Of a DNA stretch of 64,000 nucleotides, positions 30,093 to 52,161 are shown piece by piece. The stretch covers positions 1 through 64,000 of the forward strand of contig JAJPJE010000067.1 of the NCBI GenBank assembly GCA_021324365.1. The letters are read 5' to 3'. Source of the stretch: Terriglobia bacterium (GTDB lineage: Bacteria > Acidobacteriota > Terriglobia > Terriglobales > Acidobacteriaceae). The position numbers and the translations under genes are program-made. Each line of letters opens with the position of its first letter. Within the stretch, counting starts at the first letter, position 1. The notes below the pieces were generated by a model. It was not told the DNA's origin. It saw only the letters and a program-made list of their open reading frames with translations, and made no database searches.

Positions 30093-30250
30093 GAGCAAAC
30101 GGTTGTTGTATCACGTCGCGTGCTGCTTGGAATAGTGCGGAAACATACTTCTATGTTGTCGTTTTGTTCATGTGCGTTTGCGTGCTGGAAGAAAGCGCAA
30201 CCATCGGTGTAGATTGGTTCGCTGGACAACACTAGCATCGGCCAACATCC

Positions 30251-31746: not shown

Positions 31747-32844
31747 GTGCTCGTCTCCGAGTTCGATTATTACCTTCCTGAGGAACTGATTGCACAGGAG
31801 CCTCTTGCGGACCGCGCAGCGTCGCGAATGCTGCATCTGGATCGCCGATCCGGAGCTGTAAACGATTTATCCTTTCGCGATCTTCCTCAGCTTCTTCATC
31901 CGGGTGACTTGCTGGTCTTTAACAATACCAGGGTATTCCCTGCCCGCCTGTACGGGCATCGCAGTGGCACGCGTGCGCAAACGCTCAGCTCGCAAAATCC
32001 CGCGATGAAGAGTTTCCTTCACGGTAGAGTCGAAGTACTTCTGGTTAAGCAGGCTCCCGGCTTGGAAGGCAACGACTGGATTGCCCTGGTCCGCCCCGGG
32101 CGGAAGATCGGAATCGGCGAGCACCTCCACTTCGGTGATTCAGGCGAGCTTGAGGCAGAGGTCGTAGGCCGCGGCGAATTCGGCGAGCGCACCTTGCGCT
32201 TCACCCAAACGGCTGATTTCTTCGAAATCGTGGAGCGCATCGGCCACGTGCCACTGCCGCCTTACATTGGCCGTGAGGATCGTCCTGGCGATCGCGACCG
32301 TTATCAGACAGTCTACGCACGGGAGCGCGGGTCGGTAGCGGCTCCGACTGCCGGATTGCACTTTACTTCAGAGATCTTGCAGCAATTAAAAGCTCGTGGA
32401 GTACAGACTGCTGAGCTTACGTTGCATGTCGGGTTGGGCACATTTCAGCCTGTACATGAGGAGCGCGTAGAAGACCACCAACTCCATCGCGAGTGGTACC
32501 GCATTACTCCCGAAGCCACTGAGAAGGTCAACCAGGCTCTTAAGGAACAACGGCGCGTCATAGCAGTGGGAACCACGACTGTGCGGACGCTCGAACATGC
32601 AGCACGCGCCTCGCAAGGCGGTCAGATCCAACCCGGCTCTGGCGAAACGGGGCTTTTTATCTATCCGGGATTCGACTTCAAAGTGGTCAATGCCCTGCTG
32701 ACCAACTTTCATCTGCCCAAATCTACGCTGCTGATGTTGGTTTCCGCTTTCGGGGGCAAGGAACACGTGCTCGCCGCTTACCGGCACGCGGTAGAACAGA
32801 GATATCGCTTCTACTCTTATGGTGACTGCACGTTTGTCGAGTGA
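31747..32844 (+). CDS. queA: S-adenosylmethionine:tRNA ribosyltransferase-isomerase
   Basis: QueA transfers and isomerises the ribosyl part of SAM onto preQ1 at tRNA position 34, forming epoxyqueuosine. The 365-residue protein has the N-terminal [24 protein letters not shown], the segment [17 protein letters not shown], and the C-terminal [18 protein letters not shown] typical of the family. The start is a GTG. The 143-base gap upstream is AT-rich and carries short repeats (ATTAC and CAATG words). The gene converges on the last gene of the minus-strand polysaccharide-like operon. Confidence 0.95.
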
Positions 32845-32861: not shown

Positions 32862-33572
32862 TTACGCTGCGTGCCATCCGGACATAGCCCGCGCCCGCCT
32901 TCGACGCTCCAGCAATGCGCGGAATGCCACTTCGATGAAGTATTTGGTGTCAGCCAATCCGAGTGCCGGGACTACAGTTACATCGCCCAGCAGCTCGGCA
33001 AGCCGAAGATAGGACGCTCGGCATTGGTGCAAGAAATCGACAGGGTATTCCGGCTTGCGGGCTCGTGCCGCTATTGGATCGGCATCCAGCAGGAAGCTGA
33101 TATCAGGGCGTGGCACGATCTTCATTACCGACCTCACGTACGCTCTCGTTGCCGAGTTGTTCAGCGGTAAATTCGCCAACTCGTCGTGTATGTAGCGATC
33201 CATGATGACGAGGTCCGCCTCTTCGCAGCTCACGCTTCTCGCGACGCTCCTCAGATGGAGCGCGTCGAGCGAGTACAGGCCATGCCGCACCAGGCTCAGG
33301 TGCCAACCCCTGACGTTTTTGTCGCGCCGCTCTACCGGTTTTTCCGGAGACCCAATCCCGTCCTCGCTCTTGAATACCTTATGAACGAAGCCTTCGCGAT
33401 AAGGTTTCAGGACAACCACATCATCCCAGAAAGCGAGCAGTTTAACCTTGAGACCCAAGTCCTCCGCGAGCATCGTGAGGCTTGAAATCTGTGTACTTTT
33501 TCCGGCTCCATCCATGCCGGAGAAGCTGATCCACAGCGGTTGTTTTTGATTGCGGGCTTGGCGCTTTTGCAT
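32862..33572 (-). CDS. Thymidylate-kinase-like P-loop kinase
   Basis: A 236-residue P-loop protein similar to thymidylate kinases: Walker A SGMDGAGKST at residues 18-27, a DRY-type motif in VIMDRYIHDELANLP, and an LID-like region LLDADPIAARARKPEYP. It differs from a housekeeping Tmk in the segment after Walker A and in the central region. Its place at the end of an eight-gene polysaccharide-type operon suggests another phosphoacceptor, perhaps a sugar, lipid or nucleotide precursor. That is inference; dTMP kinase activity cannot be ruled out. Confidence 0.78.
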   Translation of the reverse strand: MQKRQARNQKQPLWISFSGMDGAGKSTQISSLTMLAEDLGLKVKLLAFWDDVVVLKPYREGFVHKVFKSEDGIGSPEKPVERRDKNVRGWHLSLVRHGLYSLDALHLRSVARSVSCEEADLVIMDRYIHDELANLPLNNSATRAYVRSVMKIVPRPDISFLLDADPIAARARKPEYPVDFLHQCRASYLRLAELLGDVTVVPALGLADTKYFIEVAFRALLERRRRARAMSGWHAA

Positions 33573-33638
33573 TCTGCGGTCGAAGATCTACAGAGGGTCG
33601 TGATGCGACCATCTGGAAAAAGTAACTGCCTTATATAC

Positions 33639-34157
33639 TTAGTGTCCGCCAGCGGCGCTTGCAGTTGTCCTCGCTCCGGGAGGTAGTGACGGAGTTCCGC
33701 GGGACAGTCCGTAAATGATTCCAGCTGCGGCGCCAACTGCGGCGACCGCGCCGATTTTGATCAGCAACGACCGTGTTTGATGTTGCTTTGCGGGCGCAAT
33801 GGCACTGCCGGCTGGTCTGGAAGCTGCTCCGCCGGCTGTTTCGGCTCGCTGCGCGGCCGCAGCTCCAGTTGGAGCCGGATTGTTCTGCGGCTGCGACCTG
33901 TTCGAAGTTTGTGTCGCGCCATTCGGATTCGGATTATTGGGCACGGTGGCTGGCGTTTCAGGCGTTTGCTCCGGAGTCTCGCTCGGCTGCGTGGTTGCCG
34001 GTTGTTGCGGCCCGCGGCTTGGATCCGGCGTCGCACTCTGCGATGTCGAGGTTTGGGGCGACGTCTGCTGCGCCTGCAGCAAGTCAGGGCCTCCACCAAG
34101 GGCAAAAACGAGCGCGATCAACAGCAGATGACTCGGCCATTTTGATCTTTTATTCAT
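33639..34157 (-). CDS. Proline/threonine-rich exported protein with C-terminal membrane helix
   Basis: A 172-residue protein from the ATG at 34157 (GGAG site upstream). A signal peptide or anchor covers residues 1-29. A low-complexity region rich in P, T, Q, S, N and A covers about 30-120. A glycine/alanine-rich hydrophobic helix (IGAVAAVGAAAGIIYGL) sits at about 133-149, and the protein ends in a short polar tail. The layout suits a periplasmic spacer anchored at one or both ends. No family recognised. It lies between the ParB/Srx-like gene and the kinase gene in the same operon. Confidence 0.7.
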   Translation of the reverse strand: MNKRSKWPSHLLLIALVFALGGGPDLLQAQQTSPQTSTSQSATPDPSRGPQQPATTQPSETPEQTPETPATVPNNPNPNGATQTSNRSQPQNNPAPTGAAAAQRAETAGGAASRPAGSAIAPAKQHQTRSLLIKIGAVAAVGAAAGIIYGLSRGTPSLPPGARTTASAAGGH

Positions 34158-34176
34158 TGGAAACTCCACTCGGAAT

Positions 34177-34923
34177 TCACTTAGGCTCCGAAACCGCCTT
34201 CCGGGCCGAAACGGCCTTTGCCGTGTACGTACTGGCTTCCGCAGGCTGCATCGACGGAAGTCCCGTGACGTTTGCATCGGGATCGCTCCACAGGTGCCGC
34301 ACCCGGTTCTTCATATAACGAAAAATGTTGCTAACGCTCCCGTTGTACCAGCACACTTGTGACATTCGCTCTGAAAGCCCTAGAAACACGCGGAAGCGAT
34401 TGTGCACTGTCTCCGGCGAACTGAGCGTGCCCGCAGTCATTCGATGGTTGCCCTCAATGATCGTGATCGGGTGATCTTCGTCCAGGCCGATCAGGACTAC
34501 TGAGCTGTAGTCGTTGTCATAACGCAGCCGGTAGCTCAAAGACTGGATCTTGGAGATGAACTCACCGATCCGGCCCGAGAACTTGCGAGTTCGTATCTGA
34601 TGAACGATGTCCATAAGAGCGAAGCTTCCGTTTGCGATCTTTCTCCAATGCGCGCGCGGGAAAACGCGAATCCATGTCAGGTCTTGCGGCTCAAGTTCTA
34701 CTTCCCACCATTGCGTATCAGCCGGCAACTCGCGCCACATATGTCCTCGCCGACGAAAGAGCAATGCGCGACGTAGCTGGTTTTCTTCTTCGCTGCTCAA
34801 GTCCGCATCGAGTACCAGGTGTTCATAGCGGTGGCGATCGCGATGAAATTCTTCCTGATAGAACTCATTTTTGAGGAATTCCGCAATCACTTCAGCTTCA
34901 GTGACGCGTCGCAGTCTTTTCAT
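34177..34923 (-). CDS. ParB/sulfiredoxin-like fold protein (GNHR motif)
   Basis: A 248-residue protein with a basic N-terminal half and a central ITIIEGNHRMTAG segment at about 153-165. This resembles the G-x-x-R nucleotide/substrate motif of ParB N-terminal and sulfiredoxin folds. No DNA-binding HTH is seen, so it is not a partition protein. Its start overlaps the stop of the flippase gene (ATGA), so it is translationally coupled to a polysaccharide-export function. A role as an NTP-binding or kinase-like factor in the locus is possible, but I do not recognise a named family. Confidence 0.65.
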   Translation of the reverse strand: MKRLRRVTEAEVIAEFLKNEFYQEEFHRDRHRYEHLVLDADLSSEEENQLRRALLFRRRGHMWRELPADTQWWEVELEPQDLTWIRVFPRAHWRKIANGSFALMDIVHQIRTRKFSGRIGEFISKIQSLSYRLRYDNDYSSVVLIGLDEDHPITIIEGNHRMTAGTLSSPETVHNRFRVFLGLSERMSQVCWYNGSVSNIFRYMKNRVRHLWSDPDANVTGLPSMQPAEASTYTAKAVSARKAVSEPK

Positions 34924-36281
34924 GCTGCTTCCTCCTTTTCAAAAGAGTGGCGATGCTGCCGGAAAAAAGGAAGTGACACAATTACAAGCAAAATAACCAT
35001 CAAAACCAGTTGCACGACGACAACCTGGCGAAGGTTAGAGTGGATGAACTGGATTCCGAGAACCACTGCGCCGCTGATGCCAAGCTGTACCCAGCCGGTA
35101 TTGGCGATCTTTCGGGACATCTCGTAGGCCATCAAAACTACTGCGATGGAGTACGTGCCGGTCGCGGCTGCCCGCAGGCTCAGCAGAGCGTGCATGTCGG
35201 CAGACATCTGGAAACCAGAGCCAAAGATTGCGCTCAGGATTGTCGCCGGAAATGCCCCCAGGCCTATGATGAACAAGAGTGAAAGAAGCAAAACGACGGC
35301 CAACGGTACAATCAGCACGTTACTGTTTTCTTTGCTATCGTCCGCTCCCGCTGAAATGGGGAACATGGCGCTCACCACTGACCAGCACGCGAGATAAAGC
35401 ACGCGTCCCACCAGTGCAATCGCTGCGTACAGTCCCGCTTGGTCGTTGGTGAAGAAGTGCTTGACCAGCAGGATGTCCACGTTGTTGATGATCACTTGCC
35501 CGGCGAAGAAGACGACTGCCTGAACACCTTCACCGAAAGAGGCGCGAGCACCGGCCTGCCGGAATACTTTTAATTCCGGGGGCACCCTGGGAAAGAAATA
35601 CGCCAGCAGCACCGATACCGAGATGGCTGCAATTGCGCCATCTACGCCGTAGCCCATTTCGATGAAGACAATGGCACCGATCAGCTTGACCACAGTCTCA
35701 AGAATCAGATTCCAACTGAGTGCCCCAAACCTGCACGTGCCCTGCAGTCCGCCGCGCTTGGTGCCCAGCGGAATGTAGATCGCAAGTCCCAGCGCCATCA
35801 ATATCACCAGCCACGGAGATGGGAGGTTCAGGTAACTTGCCACCCATTTGCTCGTCAGCAGCAGGCCCGTGCCAATCAGCAGCCCAACTACCCACGACTT
35901 TCGCATCAGGGCCGCATACACCGTTGCTTTGCCCGACAGCGTGTCATTGCGGGCGATGATTTTCGCGCAGACCAGTTGAAACGACAGCGTGATGGCGGAA
36001 ACCATCATCAGAAGTGTCCCGGCGGCGGCAGCGTGGCCAAATGCTGCCGGTCCGAGCATGCGTGCAACAGCGACGTTGTATCCGAAGTTGAATGCGCTCA
36101 CCAGCCCCGAGCCCAGCAGCATGATGATGCTGCCGCCGAGTATGCGCGTATGGGCGGGCTCCGATCGCAGTGTTGCCACTGCGTCGCGCCAACCCAAACG
36201 CGGCGCGTCGGGTACGAGCGTGCCTGGTTTGGTCACGACTTCGCACCTCGATCCGAGAGCATGCTGGTCGGCAGCTTGCAT
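34920..36281 (-). CDS. Wzx-like polysaccharide flippase (MATE/MOP superfamily)
   Basis: A 453-residue protein with about twelve to fourteen membrane helices. The N-terminal GSIIMLLGSGLVSAFNFGYNVAVARMLGPAAFG is the classic start of oligosaccharide flippases of the MOP superfamily, and the repeat of this pattern near FFAGQVIINNVDILLVKHFFTNDQAGLYAA supports it. It would move lipid-linked sugar chains or intermediates across the inner membrane. Its 3' end overlaps the ParB/Srx-like gene (ATGA) and the STAS gene lies 48 bases upstream. Confidence 0.88.
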   Translation of the reverse strand: MQAADQHALGSRCEVVTKPGTLVPDAPRLGWRDAVATLRSEPAHTRILGGSIIMLLGSGLVSAFNFGYNVAVARMLGPAAFGHAAAAGTLLMMVSAITLSFQLVCAKIIARNDTLSGKATVYAALMRKSWVVGLLIGTGLLLTSKWVASYLNLPSPWLVILMALGLAIYIPLGTKRGGLQGTCRFGALSWNLILETVVKLIGAIVFIEMGYGVDGAIAAISVSVLLAYFFPRVPPELKVFRQAGARASFGEGVQAVVFFAGQVIINNVDILLVKHFFTNDQAGLYAAIALVGRVLYLACWSVVSAMFPISAGADDSKENSNVLIVPLAVVLLLSLLFIIGLGAFPATILSAIFGSGFQMSADMHALLSLRAAATGTYSIAVVLMAYEMSRKIANTGWVQLGISGAVVLGIQFIHSNLRQVVVVQLVLMVILLVIVSLPFFRQHRHSFEKEEAA

Positions 36282-36329
36282 TGAGCGTTCTTCACCACGA
36301 GCTGTCGTTTCATCAGTTCACCTCTCGGC

Positions 36330-36758
36330 CTAAGCGGCGGCCGAGTTCTCTGGCTCGGAGTAGATTTCCTTTTCGGCTCGCTTCAGCAGGATGGGGCTCA
36401 CGACCGGAAGGTTCTTCATGGTGCCGGGTAAGAAACGCTGGAAGCTCTTTACTGCGTCTCCGGAGCTCTCGTAAATTTCGAACAGACGGTCAGTACGCGT
36501 GAGTTCAAGGATTACCGCCGCCTGCGGCGACAGCTTCGCTAATTTCAATTCGCCATCGCGCTTCATGACCTCCGCCATGCAGCGCAGAAGCATATCGACA
36601 CCGGCCGCATCCATCTGCCGGATTTGTGAACAATCAAACACCAACTGCGGCCGATCCGTGTTCAGAAAGGGCTGCACCTCGTGAAGAAACATGCGGGCTT
36701 GCCGCTGATTCAACCGATCTGGCATGCGCTTCACGATGACAGGCTTACTCGTTTCCAT
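36330..36758 (-). CDS. STAS-domain protein lacking the phosphorylatable serine
   Basis: A 142-residue protein with one STAS domain, as in SpoIIAA-type anti-sigma-factor antagonists (LVFDCSQIRQMDAAGVDMLLRCM at about residues 39-61). In SpoIIAA the loop reads D-S-S-G and the second serine is phosphorylated; here it is D-A-A-G, so the switch serine is missing. It may therefore be a constitutive partner or scaffold rather than a phospho-switch. A strong GAGGAG site precedes the ATG, which lies inside the end of the nucleotidyltransferase-like gene (14-base overlap). Confidence 0.85.
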   Translation of the reverse strand: METSKPVIVKRMPDRLNQRQARMFLHEVQPFLNTDRPQLVFDCSQIRQMDAAGVDMLLRCMAEVMKRDGELKLAKLSPQAAVILELTRTDRLFEIYESSGDAVKSFQRFLPGTMKNLPVVSPILLKRAEKEIYSEPENSAAA

Positions 36759-37926
36759 ATCTCCTCGCGGCTACTAGATTTGCCGGGAACTCGCCGGCGT
36801 CCACCGAGGGCACCGGATTTGTGATGCTCGCCGGAGCAGTAAGCGCGGAACAGGGTTCCTGAACTGCTAGCGGCAGTGCCGGCGCATATTCGCGATGGGA
36901 CAGCGCGAACACACCCCGGAAGATTTGAGCGGGTAAAAAGCTGACCAGCGATGCTGCATTCGCGAGCACTCGAATGGGCGCTTTGCTCGAGGCCATACCA
37001 ATCAGCTTCGAATCCGAGATTTCCACCTCGGTATTCCGTGGGAAATTCCACAAGCGTTGAAAGCCAACCACCGAGTGAGTAACATCAAGTCCGGCCCCCA
37101 GGTAGCTGTAGGGCAACACGGTCACGTCTTCCACCACCGTTCCGCAGTCAACCACGGCATGATGTTCGAGAACCGTGCAGCGCGTGATCACGGCGGATGC
37201 TCGCACTCGTACCTTCGCTCCGATGTACGCCGGGCTGAGAACTCGTGCGCGCTTGTGAATGCGAGCGCCTCGTCCGACCCAGACACCGGGCTTCGCCTCC
37301 GTACCGATCGGCTCGATTTCCGTCAACTGCTGCAGAGAATCAACAGCAAGCTGCCGCAGATCGCGACTGTCGCACAACCGATTGCAGTAGCCATCGAAGA
37401 AATATCGCGTATTCGATCCGCGGAACTTCCGCAGCTGATGGCGTAGCGCGAACGCTGCATCATTGCGTCGCGATGCCGCCACCATGCAGATGTCCATAGC
37501 GTTCCCGTCACCATCTGCCATCGTCGTGACATGGCACTGTCGGTCGACATGGAACTGGAGGAAATCGTCGAAATCGAATTCGGTGTAGCATCCGATGCGC
37601 CATACCAGAACCGCGTCCGCGCCCGATTGCGAGAATTCGGTGAACACGTGTTCGGCCGATCGCCACACACCATCTGCCGAAGATTGGACCCACTGCACGG
37701 GGCAACTCTGGCCGGGCATTGCAGTTGGCCAGGAGTTGACAGCCGAATCGCTGATCACTGAGATACACTCCACTCCGCTCTTCGCCAGGCGGTCGGCGAT
37801 CCGGTACACAACCGGTCGTCCGAGTACATCGGCAAACGCGAGCGGCATTCCGCTCACCATTTCCGCGCCAGAGCCCTGCCTGTCTTCGGCGGGTGGTGCG
37901 ACTATCAGAATTGCTTTTACATCCAC
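36745..37926 (-). CDS. Degenerate sugar nucleotidyltransferase fused to a left-handed beta-helix
   Basis: A 393-residue protein from the GTG at 37926, chosen for its GAGG site 8 bases upstream; the frame also allows a start at 37980. The first ~230 residues resemble an NDP-sugar pyrophosphorylase fold (KAILIVAPP, LGRPVVYRIADRLAKSGVECISVISDS). The G-x-G-T-R nucleotide loop is lost, reading PPAEDRQGSG, so activity is doubtful. Residues about 225-310 form hexapeptide-type beta-helix turns (VWVGRGARIHKRARVLSPAYIG, TVVEDVTVLP). The C-terminal ~90 residues are low in predicted order. It lies between a glycosyltransferase and a STAS protein. Confidence 0.75.
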   Translation of the reverse strand: MDVKAILIVAPPAEDRQGSGAEMVSGMPLAFADVLGRPVVYRIADRLAKSGVECISVISDSAVNSWPTAMPGQSCPVQWVQSSADGVWRSAEHVFTEFSQSGADAVLVWRIGCYTEFDFDDFLQFHVDRQCHVTTMADGDGNAMDICMVAASRRNDAAFALRHQLRKFRGSNTRYFFDGYCNRLCDSRDLRQLAVDSLQQLTEIEPIGTEAKPGVWVGRGARIHKRARVLSPAYIGAKVRVRASAVITRCTVLEHHAVVDCGTVVEDVTVLPYSYLGAGLDVTHSVVGFQRLWNFPRNTEVEISDSKLIGMASSKAPIRVLANAASLVSFLPAQIFRGVFALSHREYAPALPLAVQEPCSALTAPASITNPVPSVDAGEFPANLVAARRYGNE

Positions 37927-39167
37927 GGCGACCACCTCGGTGCGGCTGCGCGAAAAATCGCGGATCGGGATGGAATCCATGCCGGCAATCGCCGAAAACG
38001 CGATATGGGTTCCAGTGCCTTGGCTCGCTGGTGAACATCAAACGAGCGCAGATATCTCCGGATAATTTGTGGCATTGTCATGCGCAACGCTGCATAGAAA
38101 TTTGCCTCTGCCATTTCATGCTGCCGCTCGGGTGATTGGACAAGTTCAATGATTTTCTCTGCCAAATGTTCCGGCTTTCCCCTGCGGTAAAACTCGATTG
38201 CCAGTCCCTCGTCATTTGCCATGTCGCGGAAATCATCGATATCCGCACAGATGATTGGCACCCCATACTGGCACGCCAGGTGTGCAACTCCACTGCTCCC
38301 AGTCGCGGATGAATAGGGCATCACCAACACAGTCGCACTTGCGAAAAGCTGTTGCAGCTCCTCCTCGGGGACATAGCCCGTGAATTCCACACGGTCGTTG
38401 TCTCCGACTTGTGCTGCTATTGATTCGACGTATCCCGGAGTCGTGGGGTGGTTCTCTCCGCCTATTACCAGCTTCACATTTGGGAGCTGGGCAGAAAAGA
38501 TGCGGAAAGCGTCGATCAGTTGCTCCAGTCGCTTGTAGGTTCCCCATTTCCCGAATGCCAGGATTCGGTGCACTGGGTTTCCACGCAGCTCGAAGTTGGG
38601 ATACTCGGGCCGTGCGGAAAGAATGCCATGGGAACGAAAATGCACATTCTCTCCCCGATACTTTTCCATCAGCGTGCGCCGATACGCCGGCAATAACACA
38701 GAAACGGAATTCGCAGCCAGCAGCATCCTGGTCGCGATGGAACCGGCAGCACGATAGATCCTTTGTGCCCTCACGCCTGCGTGCGACAAATCGATGTTAT
38801 CCATCAAGTGATGCAGCGTAACGTGCGTATAAACGCCCGTCATCCGTGTCAGTGCCGGAGTGGCCAATCCGTTAAAAGCTGGCAACGGATCTTTGCCGAA
38901 GGTGGAAAACAGCAGGTTGAACCAGACCACATCTGGTTTGATGTCGCGCACAGCTTTCAACAACCTTGGAGCATTCCAGAGATCGTTAAACCGCCAGCAA
39001 CGCTGCACATCAAATTCCGGCAACTCTGCCGTCTCCGGTGCGATTTCGTCCGCCAGCACGGTGACACTCAGGAGAGAGTCGGCCTGCAGTTCCCGTGCAA
39101 TGTGATACCCGTATTCGTTCAGCCCCCGCCGGCTCGGCGGAAACGCAGTTACCAAACAGATCTTCAT
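37917..39167 (-). CDS. GT4-family glycosyltransferase
   Basis: A 416-residue cytosolic glycosyltransferase of GT-B fold. N-terminal MKICLVTAFPPSRRGLNEYGYHIARELQ is typical of GT4 enzymes. The C-terminal Rossmann half has HRILAFGKWGTYKRLEQLIDAF, VEFTGYVPEEELQQLFASATVLVMPYSSATGSSGVAHLACQYGVPIICADIDDF, the usual donor-binding region, in which the EX7E-type motif is diverged. It probably adds sugars to the polymer or its lipid-linked precursor. It lies 14 bases after the giant TPR-barrel gene and overlaps the nucleotidyltransferase-like gene by about 10 bases. Confidence 0.9.
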   Translation of the reverse strand: MKICLVTAFPPSRRGLNEYGYHIARELQADSLLSVTVLADEIAPETAELPEFDVQRCWRFNDLWNAPRLLKAVRDIKPDVVWFNLLFSTFGKDPLPAFNGLATPALTRMTGVYTHVTLHHLMDNIDLSHAGVRAQRIYRAAGSIATRMLLAANSVSVLLPAYRRTLMEKYRGENVHFRSHGILSARPEYPNFELRGNPVHRILAFGKWGTYKRLEQLIDAFRIFSAQLPNVKLVIGGENHPTTPGYVESIAAQVGDNDRVEFTGYVPEEELQQLFASATVLVMPYSSATGSSGVAHLACQYGVPIICADIDDFRDMANDEGLAIEFYRRGKPEHLAEKIIELVQSPERQHEMAEANFYAALRMTMPQIIRRYLRSFDVHQRAKALEPISRFRRLPAWIPSRSAIFRAAAPRWSPWM

Positions 39168-39181
39168 GAGTCCCTTCTGGC

Positions 39182-42100
39182 CTAAAAAAGAGTCAGACGA
39201 AATACCGGCATGTACATAGCCTGCCTCTGGCCAGTGAAGCCGTAGAAATCTTGCAGTTGAAATCCCGCGGATATTCGCAGCGGATAATCAACCGGAATCG
39301 GACCGGTGCCATCGTCAATCGATCGGCGAATGGGCTTTAGGTAAGAGATGAGAAATCCGCTCTGGACGTTGTCATAGATTCCGTAACCCATCCCTTTTCC
39401 CCAGGCCGTGTTGAAGTTCACCTCCCAATTCTTGTTGGCGCGGAAATCAACCTGGCCCGCTGGCCGAAATGCCTGTGCGATCGCATATTCCGAGTCTTGC
39501 ACGCGCCACGACCTCAGGTATTCTCCTAATGCCGAAACCGTGAGTCGCGTTCCGAACTTTCTCTGGATGCCGCCATACGTCGACGTTGTGAAGAATTCGC
39601 GGATAAGCGGGTTGAACAGCAGATCGCGTGTCGAATATCCGGTCACGAACGAGGTTTTTCCCCACGGTCGCCCGACGGTGAACTGGATGTTCGCGCCAAG
39701 ATCGCGTGAACGGAGATTCTCGAGTGTGAAAGGTCCAGTCTCGCGGTACGCACTACCTTGGATCGAGATCCAGTTCCAGAAGGAACTCGAACTCATATAG
39801 ACGAACTGCCGAAACAAGTTCTGGTTGATCAGAACTGGGGAATCCTTATCCCGTCGGAGCGTGTACTGCAATCCCGCATTGAAGACCAGGCTGTTCTTTC
39901 CAAACCGCAAAACCGGATTCAAGGCGCCGTTAAACGACGTGTCGAACGTGTTGTTGTTGACGATGATCAGCTGGCTGGGCAGCGATAATTGTCCGTAAAA
40001 GTTACGTTCTTGCACATAGCCTGTGATAGCTGGCAGGCCGTTCACATGTGCTTTGAAGCCGCTTGTCAGCTGCGTTTGATACTGCGGGCGCGGCGGTGGC
40101 AGTGCGCCATTGGGTCCAGCTCCAAATAGACGTGCATCAAGCGTATAGATTGTCGGATCGAGGAATATGGGCGCTCCCGCGACATCTTCGGAAATATTGA
40201 ACTTATTCCAGACCGGCAGACCTTCCGAGCCTGCGAGCTGCTGCTCATTGAATTCAACGCTGTCATCATTTCCGCCGTCGAGCTGGCTAGCTTCTGCAAA
40301 GGCAGTGAGCGCATGCACGTCATCGTGCCGCTGCCGATAGACGCCAGCCATCGCCAGCTTGTAGTCATAGTTTTCATCCAGGTCGGATGGGTTCCCCAAC
40401 CGCGCCAGTTCCGTCTGAGCCTGGGCAGTTTCGCCTTGCGCCAGGTAGGCATTCGCGAGTCCTACGGCGACTACTTCATCCGCGGCTCCCTCCTTGCCCG
40501 CCCGTTGGAACATGCGTTCCGCAAGATCGAAGTCGTGCATGGAAAGGAAAATGTTTCCGGCCTCGATCAGATTGTCGGGAGTCACTGGGTTGGCCTCGCC
40601 AATCCTGGCTTCGGCAAATGCCAGGCTGATCTGCTCGCGAGCGTCATCCCACTTTCCTTGCTTTGCCATGACGCGAGCAAAGGCAAGTCGCACGCTGACA
40701 CGATCTGCATCGGGAGCATCGAGCGCTTCACTGAAGCGCTGCATCGCGGCATCTTTCTCGCCAAGCGTGAGCAGCGCATTCCCCGTAGCCAGCAGCACGG
40801 CAGCCTGGTCGCCGCCTTCTTTCTCCGCCAACTGCACGTATTGCAGCGTTTGACCGTGATCCTTCAGCTCTGCACTGGCTTGCGCCATTTGTGCATAAAT
40901 GAGCGGATCGTCGGGCTGCAATGCCAATGCATCTTTCAGCGTCTCGATTGCCTGGTTGTAATGACGCATGTAATAAAGCGTGTCCGCCAGGGCGAGCTGC
41001 AGCCGTACATCCTGCGGAGAATATTTCAGTGCCGCTTGATACTCTTTCTCTGCCTTCTGTAACAATCGCTCCTGCCGGTAAGCAGTCGCGCGCACCAGAT
41101 GCGTTGCTCCAGACTCGCCAATCAGCTTTTCTGCGGTGTCCACCTGGTCAAGTGCCGCTTTTGCTTTTCTGAGCTGCAGATCCGAGAATGCGAGGCCGAG
41201 ATGGGCGACTCCGTCTTTTGGACTCAATTTCAGTGCGGTTTGAAAGTCTTCTTGAGCTGCCTCCGGATTCTGCAGATCGTTCAACACATACCCACGGTTG
41301 ATGTAGGATTCCGCGAGTTTCGGATTCTTTTCGATTGCACGGGTGTAGTCGTCCACGGCCTGGCTGAGCAGTTGCGTTTGCTTGTGCACGTGTCCGGCAA
41401 GCAATGGGAAGTTCGGTTCTTTGGGCAGAATCTTTTCGTACTTAGTCACCAGAGCCAGCGTCTCGTCGTATCGCCCCAGGTTGTAATAGTCGTAGGCGAG
41501 ATAGACTGACGCGTTGCGATCTTCAGGGAGTTTTTGCAGGGCCCGGCGCGCAAGCTGCGCCGATTCGCGGTACTTCCCTTCGTGGAACAGATACCGTGCG
41601 TCTTCACGCTCAACCCGCGGATCTTCCATCATCTCCTTGGTGATGTACCCTGCCCATTTTCCAGCGAGCGGAATCTCGTGCTCTTCAATCGCCGCATTCA
41701 TCGCATTCGCAATAACCGTTGCATTGGCGGGCGCCACAGAACGGGCTTTCTCGTAGTTCGCTTCCGCATCTTTGTACTGACCTGCAGCAGCGTAAAGATC
41801 GCCCAGTGCAAGATAAGGCACGTAGTCGTTGGGATACGCGTCCGCAAGTTTCTGGAAGTAACTCGCAGCTGTCTTTACGTTTCCATCTTCGCGGTAGAGG
41901 TAACCCAGCCCTTCGAGGGCGTAGCGATTCTTCGGATCGCGATTCAGCACCGAGGCATAGAGCTTCCGCGCTTCATCCTTCCGCTTCAGCTTCCATAGAA
42001 GATTTGCGTATTGCAGAGAAATATTGGTGTTTTCTGGATCGAGATTTAACGCTTCTTTCAGGTCCGCTTCGGCACCGGTGTAGTCCTCGCCTGCTGTCTT

Positions 42101-43369
42101 GATTCCAGCACGAACGCGTAAAAATTCGGCGCGTTCCGGGCCTTGCAGGTTCAGCGACTGCATCTGCTGTTCCGCGTCGGCCACCACGCGCTTCGCGTCC
42201 GCGATGTCTCCCTCTTCACGGTAGAGCTCAGCCAGGTTCAAACGAAGCTGGATCGGAAAAAGCACTCCTTCTGGAACACCTTCTGCGGGAAGCCGGCTGA
42301 TTGCGATCTTGTATTCGGAAATGGCGTCAGCATCCCGGTTCTCGCTCTTGGCCAGCGCAGCCTTGATCGCATGCAAGCGATAATTATTTGGATCAATAGC
42401 TTCCGCCCGCGACAGGAACTGGCGAGTTTTCTCGGAATCAGCGGCAACCAGTTCCGCTTGTGCCGCGCTTAGTTGCAGCCCGATTTGCCGCGGTCCCATG
42501 TCCGCAGCTTTCGCGTAGGTTGCGGCCGCTTCCTTCTTATCTCCGTCCAACGCATAGCTGTAGCCAAGGTCGCCGAGGATTTCAGGCGTCGGCCGCGGAA
42601 TTTCCTTGAGAATTGCAATCGCGTTTTTGTAGTCGTGTACCTCGCGGTAATAGTTGGCGATCGCGCGGTAGATGTCCGGGTCGTTGGGAGATCTGCGTTT
42701 TGCTGCTTCCAATAGCTGGTGGGCTTTATCAGGCTGCCTCAGGCGTATGTAGGCTGTGGCCATCAGCAATTCCGCGTGCGCGGAAGGTTTCATTGCTTCG
42801 GCTCGCTGCAGGTAAGTTAGACCCTGCTGCACATCACCCGTTTGCATGTACAGCTCGCCTGCCATCAGCAATTCATTCTGGCGTTTTGGATTGGCCGCAA
42901 TCACCTGTAGCAGGAGACGCTTCGCCTGATCGGTCTGGCCCATCCGGGCGTAGGTTTGCGCCATCCCGGAGAGTCCGTCTACCGACGACGGACGAATCGC
43001 AAGACCTTTCTTATAGGCGTCAAGAGATGTGGTGTAGCGACCCGAAAGCCGGGATGCGTATCCTAGAAGAAACCACAATTGCGCATCCTGTGGCGCGGCA
43101 TGCACCGCGCGCTCGGCGTACTCGGACGCACTTGCGTAATCTCCCTTCGCCAGCGCAGTATCCGCAGCGCGGGCAAGACGACCGACTTCGATGCTGCTTC
43201 CCCACCCAATCTCGCTGGATGAGGAACTACCCTTCTTCCCTGGCGCAGAAGAGGACTTCTGGGGAGCAGAATTCTGATCCTGGCCACCGACTTCAAACGT
43301 CTGGCTGTGCGCCGTGATCGCGCCCGTCAATAAGGAACAGAACGTTACGATTGCGAGAAAACTTTTCAC
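39182..43369 (-). CDS. Giant TPR protein with C-terminal outer-membrane beta-barrel
   Basis: A 1,395-residue exported protein: signal peptide at residues 1-23 (cleavage near AHSQT), a short serine-rich linker, then about 25 TPR repeats over residues 60-1020, and a beta-barrel from about residue 1090 ending in ...VFRLTLF with C-terminal phenylalanine. This architecture is that of the polysaccharide secretin-type exporters BcsC, PgaA and PelB, in which a periplasmic TPR scaffold guides polymer to a barrel pore. It leads an eight-gene operon with a glycosyltransferase and a flippase, which supports a role as the outer-membrane exporter of an exopolysaccharide. Confidence 0.87.
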   Translation of the reverse strand: MKSFLAIVTFCSLLTGAITAHSQTFEVGGQDQNSAPQKSSSAPGKKGSSSSSEIGWGSSIEVGRLARAADTALAKGDYASASEYAERAVHAAPQDAQLWFLLGYASRLSGRYTTSLDAYKKGLAIRPSSVDGLSGMAQTYARMGQTDQAKRLLLQVIAANPKRQNELLMAGELYMQTGDVQQGLTYLQRAEAMKPSAHAELLMATAYIRLRQPDKAHQLLEAAKRRSPNDPDIYRAIANYYREVHDYKNAIAILKEIPRPTPEILGDLGYSYALDGDKKEAAATYAKAADMGPRQIGLQLSAAQAELVAADSEKTRQFLSRAEAIDPNNYRLHAIKAALAKSENRDADAISEYKIAISRLPAEGVPEGVLFPIQLRLNLAELYREEGDIADAKRVVADAEQQMQSLNLQGPERAEFLRVRAGIKTAGEDYTGAEADLKEALNLDPENTNISLQYANLLWKLKRKDEARKLYASVLNRDPKNRYALEGLGYLYREDGNVKTAASYFQKLADAYPNDYVPYLALGDLYAAAGQYKDAEANYEKARSVAPANATVIANAMNAAIEEHEIPLAGKWAGYITKEMMEDPRVEREDARYLFHEGKYRESAQLARRALQKLPEDRNASVYLAYDYYNLGRYDETLALVTKYEKILPKEPNFPLLAGHVHKQTQLLSQAVDDYTRAIEKNPKLAESYINRGYVLNDLQNPEAAQEDFQTALKLSPKDGVAHLGLAFSDLQLRKAKAALDQVDTAEKLIGESGATHLVRATAYRQERLLQKAEKEYQAALKYSPQDVRLQLALADTLYYMRHYNQAIETLKDALALQPDDPLIYAQMAQASAELKDHGQTLQYVQLAEKEGGDQAAVLLATGNALLTLGEKDAAMQRFSEALDAPDADRVSVRLAFARVMAKQGKWDDAREQISLAFAEARIGEANPVTPDNLIEAGNIFLSMHDFDLAERMFQRAGKEGAADEVVAVGLANAYLAQGETAQAQTELARLGNPSDLDENYDYKLAMAGVYRQRHDDVHALTAFAEASQLDGGNDDSVEFNEQQLAGSEGLPVWNKFNISEDVAGAPIFLDPTIYTLDARLFGAGPNGALPPPRPQYQTQLTSGFKAHVNGLPAITGYVQERNFYGQLSLPSQLIIVNNNTFDTSFNGALNPVLRFGKNSLVFNAGLQYTLRRDKDSPVLINQNLFRQFVYMSSSSFWNWISIQGSAYRETGPFTLENLRSRDLGANIQFTVGRPWGKTSFVTGYSTRDLLFNPLIREFFTTSTYGGIQRKFGTRLTVSALGEYLRSWRVQDSEYAIAQAFRPAGQVDFRANKNWEVNFNTAWGKGMGYGIYDNVQSGFLISYLKPIRRSIDDGTGPIPVDYPLRISAGFQLQDFYGFTGQRQAMYMPVFRLTLF

Positions 43370-43749
43370 AAGACCACCGGATTTCAGAGCTGTGGCTAGT
43401 TACGTTTCGCAAGCCGTGTTCCAAGTCGCGTATCCGGCGCATACTTGCTCGATTGTGCTGATTTCAGCGGCTATTCTGGATTCTCGACCTCGCCCTGCAG
43501 AGTACGAACGTTCTCTCATTGTCCATGGTGGTTCTCACTATTTCCTCGCGAGTTACATCGGGTTACCTATTCTCCCCAGAAGCTCACCTGTATAAATTGC
43601 ATTGCTTCAGTGACAGGTACGCTGAAGGCATTTCTAGGCGAGGCAATCAGGCGGGAGTTTTCGTTACGAAATATCGGAAAACCAGAAAACCCGAGCAGCA
43701 GGATGGGGAATCCTATTTGCACCGGAACGATGCTCACGGAGGCATATCG
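43370..43749. other. Divergent intergenic region of the polysaccharide-like locus
   Basis: This 380-base stretch separates the minus-strand TPR-barrel operon from the plus-strand membrane operon. Near the plus side, a TATAAA box at 43591-43596 sits between inverted ACCTGT (43586-43591) and ACAGGT (43613-43618). A second inverted pair, CTTCAG/CTGAAG, lies at 43605-43610 and 43622-43627. It probably holds both promoters. An open frame running through it from 43519 is not thought to be coding: the GTG at 43750 has a far better ribosome site. Confidence 0.5.
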
Positions 43750-45498
43750 GTGATTGCTGTTGCTCCAGGCAGCCCTAATCGCACTTTATCTGTAACTTTC
43801 ATTCTGCTGATTGCGCTCGCCGTCCATGGACCACTGCTTCTTATGCAGCTCCCTGCCGGCTCTTATGACGCTTACGTACACATGTTCTTTGCGTCACATT
43901 ATGCGCATCATTGGTTCAACCCTTGGAACCCAAAGTGGTTTGCCGGTTTCTCACAGACTACCTACCCGCCACTCGCGCACCAGTTGATCGCGCTCTCGTC
44001 CTACATCATGGGACTATCGCTCGGTTACATGTTTGTGCAATTGATTGCGGTGCTGTTGCTCGCCGTCGGAATCTACCGCTACGCGCGGCTTTGGGTAGAT
44101 GAAACTGCGGCAAGCTACGCCGCCCTTGGGAGCGTATTTCTCGGCTCCCTTGCCATGCTCGTCTACCAATCGGGCCAGTTGAATACGACCCTCGGCGCGG
44201 CGATCACGATCAATGGTATCCCGTATTTTTATCGCTGGCTTCGCGAAGCTCGCTTCGGCGATCTGCTGAAATCCTTCTTGATCACCGTCTCCGCAGCTGC
44301 TGTCCACCATCTGACGCTGGTTACGATCGTCTTGTTTTCGTTCCCGGTCATCTGGCTTGCGCTCGTAGATCGCAACAACGAAGCTGAAGGCGGCGAGGCC
44401 TCCACTGTCGGCATTCTCGTGCGCGCCATCGTATTTGGAATTATTTCCATTGCCGGCATCGCTGCCGTTCTGCTGCCGTTCTGGATTTCCTTCTTCAACA
44501 ATCCGGTCACGCAGGCGCCGATCCCACATCCCAGCCGCACGAATTACTTACTGAATCTGCATAACGGTCTCAATTTCTGGATTATTCCCTACGGTGCTCT
44601 GATTCTCGCCATCCCATTCATCTTCTTGCGTGGAACGCGAGAGCGCCGTCTGCAACCATTGTTTCTCGGATGGTGGATCACTACCCTCATCGGATTGGGT
44701 GGCACTACTCCCGTTCCGCATTGGCTCTTCGGACGCTTCTATTACGTCTTTACCTACGAGCGGTTTACGTTCCTCGCTACTTGCATGGCCTTGCCGTTTG
44801 CCGGATTGCTGGCGCAGCGCCTGATTGCGCGCTTCAACACGAAAGCCGTCGTTGCCCTCTGGATCGCAGCGGCTGCGACCTTCGCCATGGGCGTTGCCTG
44901 GCTGACGTTCAGCCCCATCGCCGTCACGCCTTTCGACACCAATCCAATCGCCTCGTTCTTGAATCGCGACGATCACTCCAAGTTCCGTTATCTCACACTC
45001 GGCTTCGGCAGTCTCTTCGACAAAGTCTCGATCGACACCAGCGCCGATAGCGTGGACGGCGATTACAACACCGCGCGTCTGCTGCCCGAAATGACCGCTT
45101 ACGGTGCCGCCAAGCTCGACAGTGCAAAGTATTACGGGGTCTCCGGCATGGAGTCGCTCCGGGCCATGCTGAAGCATGCCAGCCAATACGGCCTGAAATA
45201 CATCTTCGTGCGTGATCGCTATTATGAGCCGCTGCTTGCGTTCGCTGGCTGGCGTCCTGCGGAAACCTATGACGGCGGGATCGTCACCCTCTGGGTAAAA
45301 GATGACGTTCCCCCTGCGCAGCCCATGGATTTGGGTACGAAGCCCGCAGCATGGGAAGGCCTGCTTTGGGGAACAGCTCCCATCGGCGTAGCGTTTCTTG
45401 CGCTGCTTGCGGTGCTGCTGATTCCCGAACGCCGGCCGGCCTCTGTGCCGATTGAATTTCCATCTTCTGCCGACGTCGTTCTGCGGGAGGCTAAGTAA
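43750..45498 (+). CDS. Polytopic membrane protein, GT-C/PTPS-related type
   Basis: A 582-residue protein from the GTG at 43750, preceded by GGAGG. It has about ten to eleven membrane helices. A large first periplasmic loop carries an acidic-aromatic pattern (PAGSYDAYVHMFFASHYAHHWFNPWNPKWFAG) and a soluble C-terminal region follows (about 440-540). The first loop, with aspartate and histidines, resembles the catalytic loop of GT-C glycosyltransferases and the PTPS-related membrane family (name known to me only as a Pfam-type family). It could be a polymerase or sugar transferase for the neighbouring locus. Its stop overlaps the next ATG (TAATG). Confidence 0.7.
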   Translation: MIAVAPGSPNRTLSVTFILLIALAVHGPLLLMQLPAGSYDAYVHMFFASHYAHHWFNPWNPKWFAGFSQTTYPPLAHQLIALSSYIMGLSLGYMFVQLIAVLLLAVGIYRYARLWVDETAASYAALGSVFLGSLAMLVYQSGQLNTTLGAAITINGIPYFYRWLREARFGDLLKSFLITVSAAAVHHLTLVTIVLFSFPVIWLALVDRNNEAEGGEASTVGILVRAIVFGIISIAGIAAVLLPFWISFFNNPVTQAPIPHPSRTNYLLNLHNGLNFWIIPYGALILAIPFIFLRGTRERRLQPLFLGWWITTLIGLGGTTPVPHWLFGRFYYVFTYERFTFLATCMALPFAGLLAQRLIARFNTKAVVALWIAAAATFAMGVAWLTFSPIAVTPFDTNPIASFLNRDDHSKFRYLTLGFGSLFDKVSIDTSADSVDGDYNTARLLPEMTAYGAAKLDSAKYYGVSGMESLRAMLKHASQYGLKYIFVRDRYYEPLLAFAGWRPAETYDGGIVTLWVKDDVPPAQPMDLGTKPAAWEGLLWGTAPIGVAFLALLAVLLIPERRPASVPIEFPSSADVVLREAK

Positions 45499-46595
45499 TG
45501 TCGCGCGTCCTTCTTATTATTACTGTCGCTTTAACCATTCTGTTTCTGGCGATCGGCACGCTCTCGGCCGGCAATTCCGGACCGTCCAATACGCCCGACG
45601 GTGCCGTTCACGCCATGATGGCTCAGGTCCAGGCGAGGAACTGGAATGCCGCGTACTCCTACGTTGCCAACACGAACGCCACCGACCTGAATAGTTTCAT
45701 CTCCGGCCTGAACGGCACGAACGGCGATCTGCGTACATTCTCGAATTTGGCGAGCGTTCGTACCCGCGTGCTCCATGCCAGCGACAATGACGCTCTGGTC
45801 CATGCCGACATGCAGTGGTCCACCGCCGTCGGTGCGATCTATGATTCGCGCGATCTGCAGGTGGTCAGCCAAGACGGTAAGTGGAAAGTAGTATGGGAAG
45901 TTCAGAAGCAACCCAACGTTCCGCCACAGGTGATTCCGGTCACCTTCCTTCGCTGGGACGTCGTGACCCGTGGCTCAGGCGATGACTGGGGTGCCCAGAA
46001 CGTCGATGCTCCCCACGTGCGTATCGTCTCGATGAATGCCGTCGACTACGAGGGTGGCACCGTGATTCTCGGCGAAATCGTCAACGAGGACACCGTCCCT
46101 GGCTTTGTTTCTGTCAGTGCGACGCTGGTCGGAAAAAATGGTTCGACGCTCGGCGATGAGAGCAGCTTCGACAAGATCTCGCACGTGTTGCTCCCTAAAG
46201 AAGTCTCGCCGTTCCGTATTGATTTCCCCAAGGTTCCTCTGCGCGAAGTGAAGAACGTCCACATCCAGCCGAACTCGTTGCTGGTCCCCGCGTCAGCCGA
46301 TCCTACGATTGGCGTTCTTCACCAACAGCTCACGCAAGACTCCAGCGGACGCCGCGTCCTGCAGGGTGATCTCACCAACGAGAGCGGCCAGACCGTAAAT
46401 ATTCCCCACGTCCTCGCGACCTTCTACGACAACCAGGGGCGTGTGATTTGGGTCTCTGACGGCTACGTCGACCATGCATTATTGCCGCAAACGCCGGTTC
46501 CCTTCTCGCTCGCGTTGCGCGACGACATTGCTTCAAGGGTTCAGACGTACCGTGTAACGGTAAACCAGTACAGCATGAATCGCCAGCCAAGCTAA
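45498..46595 (+). CDS. Exported or anchored protein with NTF2-like and FxLYD-like parts
   Basis: A 365-residue protein with an N-terminal hydrophobic segment (residues 4-22). An NTF2-like domain follows at about 30-140 (PDGAVHAMMAQVQARNWNAAYSYVA … KWKVVWEVQKQP). Two beta-rich segments at about 165-365 (VILGEIVNEDTVPGFVSVSATLVGKNG; VLQGDLTNESGQTVNIPHVLATFYDNQG) resemble FxLYD-type domains. Coupled by one base to the membrane protein gene upstream. Function unknown; a periplasmic accessory role fits the context. Confidence 0.72.
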   Translation: MSRVLLIITVALTILFLAIGTLSAGNSGPSNTPDGAVHAMMAQVQARNWNAAYSYVANTNATDLNSFISGLNGTNGDLRTFSNLASVRTRVLHASDNDALVHADMQWSTAVGAIYDSRDLQVVSQDGKWKVVWEVQKQPNVPPQVIPVTFLRWDVVTRGSGDDWGAQNVDAPHVRIVSMNAVDYEGGTVILGEIVNEDTVPGFVSVSATLVGKNGSTLGDESSFDKISHVLLPKEVSPFRIDFPKVPLREVKNVHIQPNSLLVPASADPTIGVLHQQLTQDSSGRRVLQGDLTNESGQTVNIPHVLATFYDNQGRVIWVSDGYVDHALLPQTPVPFSLALRDDIASRVQTYRVTVNQYSMNRQPS

Positions 46596-46603
46596 GTACG
46601 AAC

Positions 46604-47464
46604 ATGCGACGACTACTTGAATATGCACTCTTAGCGGCAGCGTTGATTTTCGCTGACCGGGTTGCAAATGCGGGCGAGTTGCACGTCCCAACGAATGCAA
46701 CTGCCGGAAGCGAAGCGACCATTTCTACCTCCGGATCGGGCAGCGCAACCTTCTACCTTTTCGGCCCGGGCACTGCGGTCAAGCGTAGCATCCAACTTGG
46801 CAGCGACGTTCACCTCAGCGCAAAAGACCTTCAGTACTCTGGCAGTTACACCGCTGTGCTCGGCGGAGAAAACGCCGCCGCGACTTTTTACGTTTCGCCG
46901 GGCAAGGCAGCTGATCTCGCCTTTCTCGCCCGCCCGTCGCGCGTGCCGGCCAGCACCCGGCAAGTCATTTCGGGCACCGCGTTTGTCTTCGACGCCAACC
47001 ACAACCTTGTCACCCAGCCGACTAATGTGAATTTCAGTTTAGGTGTGAATGGCGGTAAAGCCGAGGCGCGCAGCGTGAAAACTAAGGATGGAGTCGCTTA
47101 TGTCATTCTGGATTCCGAGCGGCAAGCCGGCCCGGCGCAGTTTACCTCCAGCCTCGACGACACGAACGTGCGCCGCGTAGTTCAGGTCGTTGCTTCTGAT
47201 CCCTGCAATCTTCGAATGAGTGCGAAGCCTGCAAAGAATGCCATCCTGGTCGAGACAGAACCCATTCGTGATTGTGCCGGTAATCCAGTTCCGGACGGGA
47301 CGATCGTGACATTCACGGAAGTCGATAACACCGGACGCAGCACCGTCGACGCTCGCATCAAGAAAGGAATTGCGGAAGCCACACTCCCGCAATCTCAGAG
47401 CGCACTGCTCTCTGTTGCTTCGGGCGTGGTCGTCGGAAACGAAATTCACTGGGGTGGGCACTGA
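46604..47464 (+). CDS. Exported Ig-like beta-sandwich protein
   Basis: A 286-residue protein with a signal peptide (residues 1 to about 23, cleavage after NAG). Two to three beta-sandwich segments follow (ATISTSGSGSATFYLFGPG; GTAFVFDANHNLVTQPTNVNFSLGVNGG; GNPVPDGTIVTFTEVDNTGRSTVDARIKKGIAEATLP). The last has the pattern of invasin/big-type Ig-like domains. One cysteine pair (PCNLRM, DCAGNP) may form a disulfide. Third gene of a tight operon; the next ATG overlaps its TGA by one base. Confidence 0.72.
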   Translation: MRRLLEYALLAAALIFADRVANAGELHVPTNATAGSEATISTSGSGSATFYLFGPGTAVKRSIQLGSDVHLSAKDLQYSGSYTAVLGGENAAATFYVSPGKAADLAFLARPSRVPASTRQVISGTAFVFDANHNLVTQPTNVNFSLGVNGGKAEARSVKTKDGVAYVILDSERQAGPAQFTSSLDDTNVRRVVQVVASDPCNLRMSAKPAKNAILVETEPIRDCAGNPVPDGTIVTFTEVDNTGRSTVDARIKKGIAEATLPQSQSALLSVASGVVVGNEIHWGGH

Positions 47465-47970
47465 TGGCGAAACGTCTTTTTCCTCTGGCCTTCGGTCTTC
47501 TTTTTCTCTCTGGGTCTTTGTTTGCAGCCCAGCCGGTTCAGGTCCAATTGAGCACCTCCGGAGTTGCGCCTCGCGAAGTTGAAGACAATACAGAAAAGGC
47601 AATCATCCGTGACTATCAGCGGGCGTGGCAGTCTCTGGCAGCCGCTCTTTCTGAGAACCGCACGGACCTTCTCGCCAACGACTTCATCGGCTATGCACAG
47701 GACGAACTCCACCGCCGTGTTGCCGAGCAGCAGAACTCGGGCCTTCACACGCGCTTCATCGATCATGGGCATTCCCTGAAGGCCATCATGTACTCGCAGG
47801 ATGGCTCCGCCATGCAGCTTCGCGATACCGCCCAGATCGAAGTACAGCAACTCGATGGCAATAGCGTGATTCACTCCGACCAGATCACCCAGAGCTATCT
47901 GGTCGTCATGACCGCCGGAGAAAACCGCTGGAAGGTGCGCATCCTGCAGGCGCTCCCGTCTGAACAGTAG
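47464..47970 (+). CDS. Exported small NTF2-like protein
   Basis: A 168-residue protein with a signal peptide (KRLFPLAFGLLFLSGSLFAAQ). The mature part (IIRDYQRAWQSLAAALSENRTDLLANDFIGYAQDEL … ENRWKVRILQAL) has the helix-plus-sheet pattern of NTF2/SnoaL-like folds without catalytic residues. Its start overlaps the end of the preceding gene. Last gene of the four-gene operon; function unknown. Confidence 0.72.
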   Translation: MAKRLFPLAFGLLFLSGSLFAAQPVQVQLSTSGVAPREVEDNTEKAIIRDYQRAWQSLAAALSENRTDLLANDFIGYAQDELHRRVAEQQNSGLHTRFIDHGHSLKAIMYSQDGSAMQLRDTAQIEVQQLDGNSVIHSDQITQSYLVVMTAGENRWKVRILQALPSEQ

Positions 47971-51364: not shown

Positions 51365-51510
51365 ATGAAAACCTGGAACTGTATGTGTCTCAATTGTACT
51401 GAATGGGCTACTTCGGTGCGCGGCTGTCCGCCCTAGGCTTCTTTGGCATCGCAGAATCAGAAACTGCTGTGTCGTTTGTGGCCCCTGTGGTTATGCTTTT
51501 GTCGTAATTG

Positions 51511-52161
51511 ATGGATACCAAACGCATCGCGGACCTCCTCGCTCCCTTCTTGTGCGGTACGAGTATTTCTACCGACCAACTGAATGAAGTTTCTCTGTAC
51601 TTGGAACGGCTGCTCCGCTGGAATCAGCGCATGAATCTCACCGCGATTCGCGACCCGGATCAAATCATCACTCGCCATTTTGGTGAGTCGTTTTTTGCAG
51701 GCATGCAGATTATGGCAAGCGAACAGAGCATCACGCGGAATGCTATTGACGTAGGATCCGGCGCCGGATTTCCCGGGCTTCCCATCAAGATTCTTGCTCC
51801 GTGGCTCCCAATGCGCCTCCTTGAAGCGCAGCATCGCAAGGCGATATTTCTGCGCGAGGTGGTCCGCGACCTGGACCTGCAAAAGTGCGAGGTCCTGGCC
51901 GAACGCGCCGAGGTCCTGGTTCAATCGAAAGCTGCTGTTGCCGATCTGGTAACCATCCGCGCGGTTGAGCGCTTCGAGAACGTTCTGCCTATTGCCGCCC
52001 AACTTACCTCTAGTAAAGGTAGGCTGCTGCTACTGATCGGAAGGGAACAGGTCAGCATCACGCTCGAAGCACTCCCCGGCTTTCGATGGCTACCCCCCAT
52101 TCCAATCCCGCTCTCCGCTTCACGGCTCATTCTGATTGGCAGCAACAAAGAACCAGGGTAG
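51511..52161 (+). CDS. rsmG: 16S rRNA (guanine(527)-N7)-methyltransferase
   Basis: RsmG (GidB) makes m7G527 in 16S rRNA from SAM. The 216-residue protein has the helical N-terminal part (LERLLRWNQRMNLTAIRDPDQIITRHFGESF) and the SAM loop DVGSGAGFPGLPIKI at about 81-95. The ATG at 51511 is preferred to an overlapping TTG at 51508. In most bacteria rsmG lies immediately before parA and parB near the origin; here one membrane protein gene separates them. Mutations in rsmG are known to give low-level streptomycin resistance. Confidence 0.95.
   Translation: MDTKRIADLLAPFLCGTSISTDQLNEVSLYLERLLRWNQRMNLTAIRDPDQIITRHFGESFFAGMQIMASEQSITRNAIDVGSGAGFPGLPIKILAPWLPMRLLEAQHRKAIFLREVVRDLDLQKCEVLAERAEVLVQSKAAVADLVTIRAVERFENVLPIAAQLTSSKGRLLLLIGREQVSITLEALPGFRWLPPIPIPLSASRLILIGSNKEPG

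Follow-up and report, generated by a model that had tools for sequence, protein, structure and literature searches.

Exopolysaccharide (EPS) export by a TPR-barrel protein together with a GT4 glycosyltransferase and a MOP flippase is of a kind already known from Pel, where a single polypeptide combines a TPR superhelix with a 16-stranded β-barrel and is accompanied by a GT4 enzyme and an inner-membrane protein of MOP type. The TPR-plus-barrel architecture is also found in Slam and other non-polysaccharide systems. Acidobacteria rank among the major bacteria of soil and reportedly make abundant EPS, for which the literature consulted assigns no genes beyond cellulose (PMC4885859; for the EPS chemistry of Acidobacteria, see PMC5259719). 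Here we analyze a window of 64,000 nucleotides from a Terriglobia bacterium (GCA_021324365.1, contig JAJPJE010000067.1) and find a locus that is a lineage-restricted new variant of TPR-barrel/GT4/MOP-flippase EPS export, for which we infer the product, the polymerase and the role of a putative nucleotide-binding domain. Nothing relevant to this combination of genes appeared in the literature searched, and the locus provides a concrete, testable EPS candidate in uncultured soil Acidobacteria.

Two divergent operons and their conservation

The ORF listing confirms the eight ORFs, A to H, that the original prediction had placed on the minus strand at 32862-43369. Intergenic gaps from A to H are +14, −64, −14, +48, −4, +19 and +66 nt (with G started at Met 34157), and these short gaps and overlaps make the proposed single transcript plausible. 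The genes do form one locus, but the unit is larger than the eight-gene operon first described: a further operon, U1-U4, previously overlooked, lies at 43759-47970 on the plus strand and co-occurs with A-H, giving a locus of about twelve genes in two divergent operons (Table 1). A scan for sigma-70-like promoters gave no site in the inter-operon region, and fewer sites than shuffled sequence.

Table 1. Features of the locus, in window coordinates.
Feature	Position	Strand	Description
A	39182..43369	-	1395-aa outer-membrane exporter: signal peptide, ~1000 aa of TPR, C-terminal 16-stranded β-barrel ending in Phe
B	37917..39167	-	GT4 glycosyltransferase; Glycos_transf_1 1.1e-20
C	36745..37980	-	Degenerate sugar nucleotidyltransferase-like domain plus left-handed β-helix; regulatory or acyltransferase-like
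D	36330..36758	-	Single STAS-domain protein; STAS 1.4e-11; MDAAG, lacking the usual phosphorylatable Ser
E	34920..36281	-	MOP (Wzx-type) flippase; Polysacc_synt 9.5e-9
F	34177..34923	-	ParB/Srx-fold domain; 4-nt overlap with E; fused to the E C-terminus in most relatives
G	33639..34157	-	Secreted Pro/Thr-rich protein whose C-terminal Gly-rich TM segment is conserved; ORF opens 34277, likely start 34157
H	32862..33572	-	Thymidylate-kinase-family P-loop kinase; Thymidylate_kin 1.6e-8
U1	43759..45498	+	Multi-pass membrane protein, PTPS_related (PF10131); ORF opens 43519, likely GTG start ~43759
U2	45498..46595	+	Membrane-anchored periplasmic FxLYD/DUF3426-like protein
U3	46604..47464	+	Exported protein, weak Ig-like (Invasin_D3) similarity
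U4	47464..47970	+	Small exported protein without recognized family
Inter-operon region, ~390 bp	43370..43758	.	Presumed promoters of both divergent operons, by position only

The earlier TPR (6e-63, Pfam, in A), GT4, STAS, Polysacc_synt and Thymidylate_kin domain calls all hold, with Pfam and NCBIfam backing them and the hexapeptide of C. Past the kinase end of the locus lie queA (31747-32844), a GH27-like α-galactosidase gene (30251-31603) and a gene for a PMT_2 membrane protein (28968-30098), none of which is a recurrent linked partner in relatives. About 4-8 kb beyond U4, the stretch 51508-55711 carries an rsmG-like gene (51508-52161) as well as a canonical ParB gene (PF02195 match 54938-55219), which suggests that the window may be close to the chromosome origin.

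C and E served as queries for relatives in 150 genomes of the order, from which 32 stretches were taken. C homologues are found over most of their length in ≈22 and E homologues in ≈37 of these genomes, and roughly a quarter of the genomes sampled from the order carry the locus. In the 32 stretches, tblastn places the eight families and three divergent-operon genes together, with the fourth, U4, recognized by clustering of unassigned genes; the gene-neighborhood comparison proposed with the original prediction thus finds its families co-occurring in related genomes. The same gene set recurs in 80 named genome loci, all from Acidobacteriota (Terriglobales) and nearly all MAGs, a set that overlaps the 32 stretches as some named records are the same contigs. 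Counted over 38 long loci (≥19 kb), F is present in 38, E in 37, U1 in 34, U2 and U3 in 33 each, A and U4 in 32 each, H in 30, G in 27, D in 26, a GH71/99-like hydrolase in 23, C in 18, B in 17, a GT2 in 12 and a DPM-like GT2 in eight. Within the phylum sample, the complete set was found in the family of the window alone.

At least three gene orders are observed among relatives, at 40-70% identity: the colinear A-H order of the window; a second in which U4-U1 and A-EF diverge and B-DPM-H-G-D-C follows on the other strand; and a third with A divergent from U1-U4-GT2, then the GH71/99 gene and EF-D-G-H. Linkage that is kept through rearrangement at this level of divergence makes mere proximity unlikely. 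In one arrangement, six loci have an ECF-type sigma factor gene next to C, for instance at L074:16144-16938 and L077:14986-15753, as a possible regulator. One genome (G112, contig C39) carries two fused-flippase copies ≈29 kb apart (L091/L092), one of them close to an A-B pair that has diverged (38% and 49% identity), which points to a duplicated locus. The distant matches beyond the family, namely an F-like ORF of G316 and a PTPS-like ORF of G260, are not the system, nor are the flippases of the f21 genomes, where no A or F is found; the F-like ORF of G316, which belongs to another family of the phylum (L194:1296-1877, E 4e-14), has no adjacent flippase and adjoins a gene for a large exported protein.

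The predicted exporter and its relation to Pel

An AF2 model of residues 1001-1395 of A, built from 46 sequences, is confident (pLDDT 89.7) and reveals three helices followed by a barrel of 16 long strands, bearing out the barrel that had been claimed from sequence. Re-alignment of the best 1000 Foldseek matches by VIA-align ranks PelB of the PelBC complex first (9h80_M, Z 20.8 over 300 residues), PgaA second (Z 19.6) and BcsC ninth (Z 17.9); with a gap of only 1.2 Z between PelB and PgaA, we assign A to the class of TPR-barrel polysaccharide exporters and not to PelB, and its cargo is presumably a polysaccharide. The C-terminal residue of A is Phe in 45 of 46 relatives, and a terminal Phe is common to many outer-membrane proteins. 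NCBIfam matches of A such as PEP_TPR_lipo fall below cut-off and reflect the TPR repeats only.

Since PelB is closest to the barrel of A, the parallel with Pel drawn in the original prediction holds for the exporter and for the overall TPR-barrel/GT4/MOP-flippase architecture, and a glycan hydrolase, as in Pel, is linked in relatives of the window locus. The parallel does not extend to membership in Pel, which we reject: PelG (PF16933) is absent by HMM from all 15 carrier genomes, where E matches PF01943 instead, and neither PelA, PelC, PelD, PelE nor PelF has a family match in the locus (Pfam, for the locus genes; NCBIfam, for ten of them). Unlike Pel, the locus adds U1-U4 and STAS, Tmk-like and NTase-like proteins, and in most relatives its flippase is fused to a ParB/Srx-fold domain. 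Gene content, the PelG result and this fusion set it apart from Pel. The PNAG and cellulose systems share the TPR-barrel exporter architecture through PgaA and BcsC, but the locus contains no processive GT2/PilZ synthase, deacetylase or Bcs subunits. As had been anticipated, Wza and Wzc are, like PelA, PelC and PelD, not found in the locus, and no named exopolysaccharide system matches it one to one.

A flippase with a ParB/Srx-fold domain

E matches Polysacc_synt (PF01943) above cut-off, as do 18 of 25 family members. We find that E and F form one polypeptide of ≈655-720 aa, with F at the C-terminus, in 79 of 111 loci, and are separate in 32, three of which (L148, L153, L172) end at a contig edge. 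F is a domain of the flippase, and not the separate regulatory addition that it had been taken for. In a tree of 92 F domains, 25 separate proteins, including that of the window, form one clade (support 98/86), while fused proteins are present in all deep groups; subject to the rooting of this tree, a fused ancestor followed by one fission would be the simplest reading.

The model of F is confident (pLDDT 90), and the 21 structural matches listed by VIA-align (Z 3.6-5.1) comprise sulfiredoxin, Noc/ParB/KorB and SerK/SbnI free serine kinases plus one Agrobacterium protein of no stated family; all listed matches with a stated family adopt the ParB/Srx fold, with weak Foldseek support. The fold thus agrees with the earlier description of F as ParB/Srx-like, but HMMs and profile-profile alignment do not: F gives no PF02195 match and no HMM support for ParB/Srx (Pfam, NCBIfam), and alignment to Acidobacterial ParB by hhalign is not significant (probability 0.9%), pairing GNHR with GERR. 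Homology of F and ParB is therefore suggested by fold alone, at a Z of at most 5.1. A sequence search of the PDB with F returns designed proteins only, and no F was found in viral contigs.

Conservation in F is highest in two stretches, FPRxxWRK and T[IV][LI][DE]GNHR, which the search chose as patterns and which presumably sit at the expected ParB/Srx nucleotide boxes (placed by eye, within the VIA-align range), with GNHR at the presumed P-motif position of the ParB-CTPase/sulfiredoxin/SerK group. Sulfiredoxin has GCHR here, with a catalytic Cys, and the Asn of F makes a sulfinic reductase unlikely. F may bind a nucleotide. Unlike ParB-CTPases, sulfiredoxin and SerK, F is fused to an integral membrane flippase, and we offer as a speculative, rather unlikely proposal that F is a nucleotide switch or small-molecule kinase that would make the flippase an NTP-controlled (CTP, ATP or GTP) glycan transporter, in a new class of TPR-barrel EPS machine confined to Terriglobales. 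No report of a membrane-transport use of the ParB/Srx fold appeared in the literature searched. A 2025 survey of ParB-fold fusions relied on PF02195, which F does not match, and its main text contains neither "flippase" nor "polysaccharide" (PMC12704722). The fusion joins a predicted nucleotide-binding fold to a lipid-linked-glycan flippase, making the coordination of MOP flippases with glycosyltransferases directly testable.

Proposed glycan assembly, accessory proteins and route of export

U1 has about 10 hydrophobic segments and adjoins the barrel gene divergently in nearly all relatives, and 14 of 21 family members match PF10131 (PTPS_related, best 7.5e-7), the window member itself giving no match. 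From these weak matches and from what we take PTPS_related proteins to be, namely GT-C glycosyltransferases, U1 is read as a GT-C-like enzyme; a sequence search of the PDB gives chance matches only, to glutaminyl cyclase. The original prediction saw no obvious polymerase, which stands insofar as no Wzy or PelF HMM matches in the locus, yet it overlooked this multi-pass protein, and U1 may be the polymerase. Among linked relatives B is 49-78% identical, and roughly half of the long loci lack B, so a linked GT4 is no fixed member of the set. Pfam finds no GT2 among the twelve window genes; homologues of the GT2 and of the linked hydrolase, which falls slightly short of the Pfam cut-offs for GH71 and GH99, are present elsewhere in the genome.

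C was correctly described as a degenerate nucleotidyltransferase plus β-helix: Hexapep is found in 14 and LbH_EIF2B in 11 of 18 members, and the family profile matches sugar-1-phosphate nucleotidylyltransferases (1.7e-10) and eIF2B-epsilon; resemblance to these enzymes without the GxGxRL loop suggests a regulatory role. H retains an invariant or nearly invariant GxDGxGK.TQ P-loop and DR[YF] (DRY) motif, matches Tmk of the PDB by profile (1.6e-17) and exceeds the Pfam cut-off for Thymidylate_kin, but at 37 bits stays below the cut-off of 83 for the dTMP kinase equivalog TIGR00041. D resembles SypA of the Vibrio fischeri syp locus as a single STAS protein within a polysaccharide locus (PMC4517449), but has Ala or another residue at the expected position of the phospho-Ser (Ser56 of SypA). 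The phospho-Ser of anti-sigma-antagonist STAS proteins of the SpoIIAA type is likewise missing from D. In an alignment of 22 homologues the main groups read MDAAG or IDSAG; most of the 22, and the window protein, have something other than Ser immediately ahead of the Gly position, so SypE-like phospho-control is unlikely. The SypA-S56A variant, which cannot be phosphorylated, is active in V. fischeri (PMC4517449), so D may act as a constitutive partner. G keeps its place in the locus with conservation limited to the short C-terminal TM part and, like F, has no meaningful Pfam or NCBIfam family.

We consider it likely that the two divergent operons encode one envelope-spanning EPS machine, given that the families co-occur in several gene orders across Terriglobales, that the barrel of A is nearest to PelB and PgaA (with BcsC ninth), that GT4, MOP flippase, PTPS_related, linked GT2 and GH71/99-like genes come together, that E-F is fused in most loci with a single fission clade, and that Wza-type exporters sit outside the locus. 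The probable product of such a machine is a sugar polymer, exported via a PelB-like outer-membrane pore. B would assemble a glycan on the cytosolic face of the inner membrane, perhaps controlled by a sugar-nucleotide-sensing C and by H, and E would carry it across, with F, as cytosolic C-terminal domain (split off by one fission in the clade of the window), binding a nucleotide and gating or coupling transport. In the periplasm, U1 may draw on polyprenyl-phosphate sugars, which the linked GT2s of relatives would make, to extend, polymerize or decorate the glycan, which the TPR superhelix of A would guide to the barrel for export; U2-U4 and G would be accessory envelope proteins, and the GH71/99-like hydrolase may trim the product.

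A credible alternative, which we nonetheless doubt, is a Wzx/Wzy-type pathway in which B and other glycosyltransferases make repeat units, E flips them, U1 polymerizes them as a Wzy-like enzyme and A exports the chain, the TPR-barrel replacing Wza/Wzc. The locus does have a MOP flippase and a GT4, and periplasmic polymerization is possible; E is Wzx-type and not PelG, U1 alone is, apart from E, a large multi-pass membrane protein and is linked almost without exception, and GT2s are linked in relatives. Against this, the window locus has a single usual cytosolic glycosyltransferase and neither Wzz, Wzc nor Wza, U1 matches PTPS_related and no Wzy or O-antigen ligase family, and the Wza-type exporters (PF02563) of this genome lie on contigs C65, C118 and C9, with none on that of the window (C36).

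Glycosylation of an envelope protein such as the Pro/Thr-rich, secreted G, with E flipping a lipid-linked glycan, U1 attaching sugars in the periplasm and A exporting or displaying the product, fits the kept place of G and the GT-C nature of PMT-type enzymes, but appears improbable: conservation of G is confined to its short C-terminal TM part, 23 of 38 loci have a linked GH71/99-like hydrolase, and A is closest to polysaccharide exporters. That A is a Slam-like or two-partner-like surface-protein translocator with sugar genes as neighbors of convenience, for which a weak TPR_Slam match below cut-off and the CdiB and FhaC barrels (Z 15-17) may be cited, is very improbable, as PelB and PgaA score higher and rearranged loci keep A linked with the flippase, GT4 and PTPS_related protein. 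Returning to the single EPS machine, its glycosyltransferase modules may occur in another locus as well: one relative (G044, contig C28) has at L196:7043-13077 a second gene resembling U1, accompanied by a B-like GT4 and a GT2 but not by E-F.
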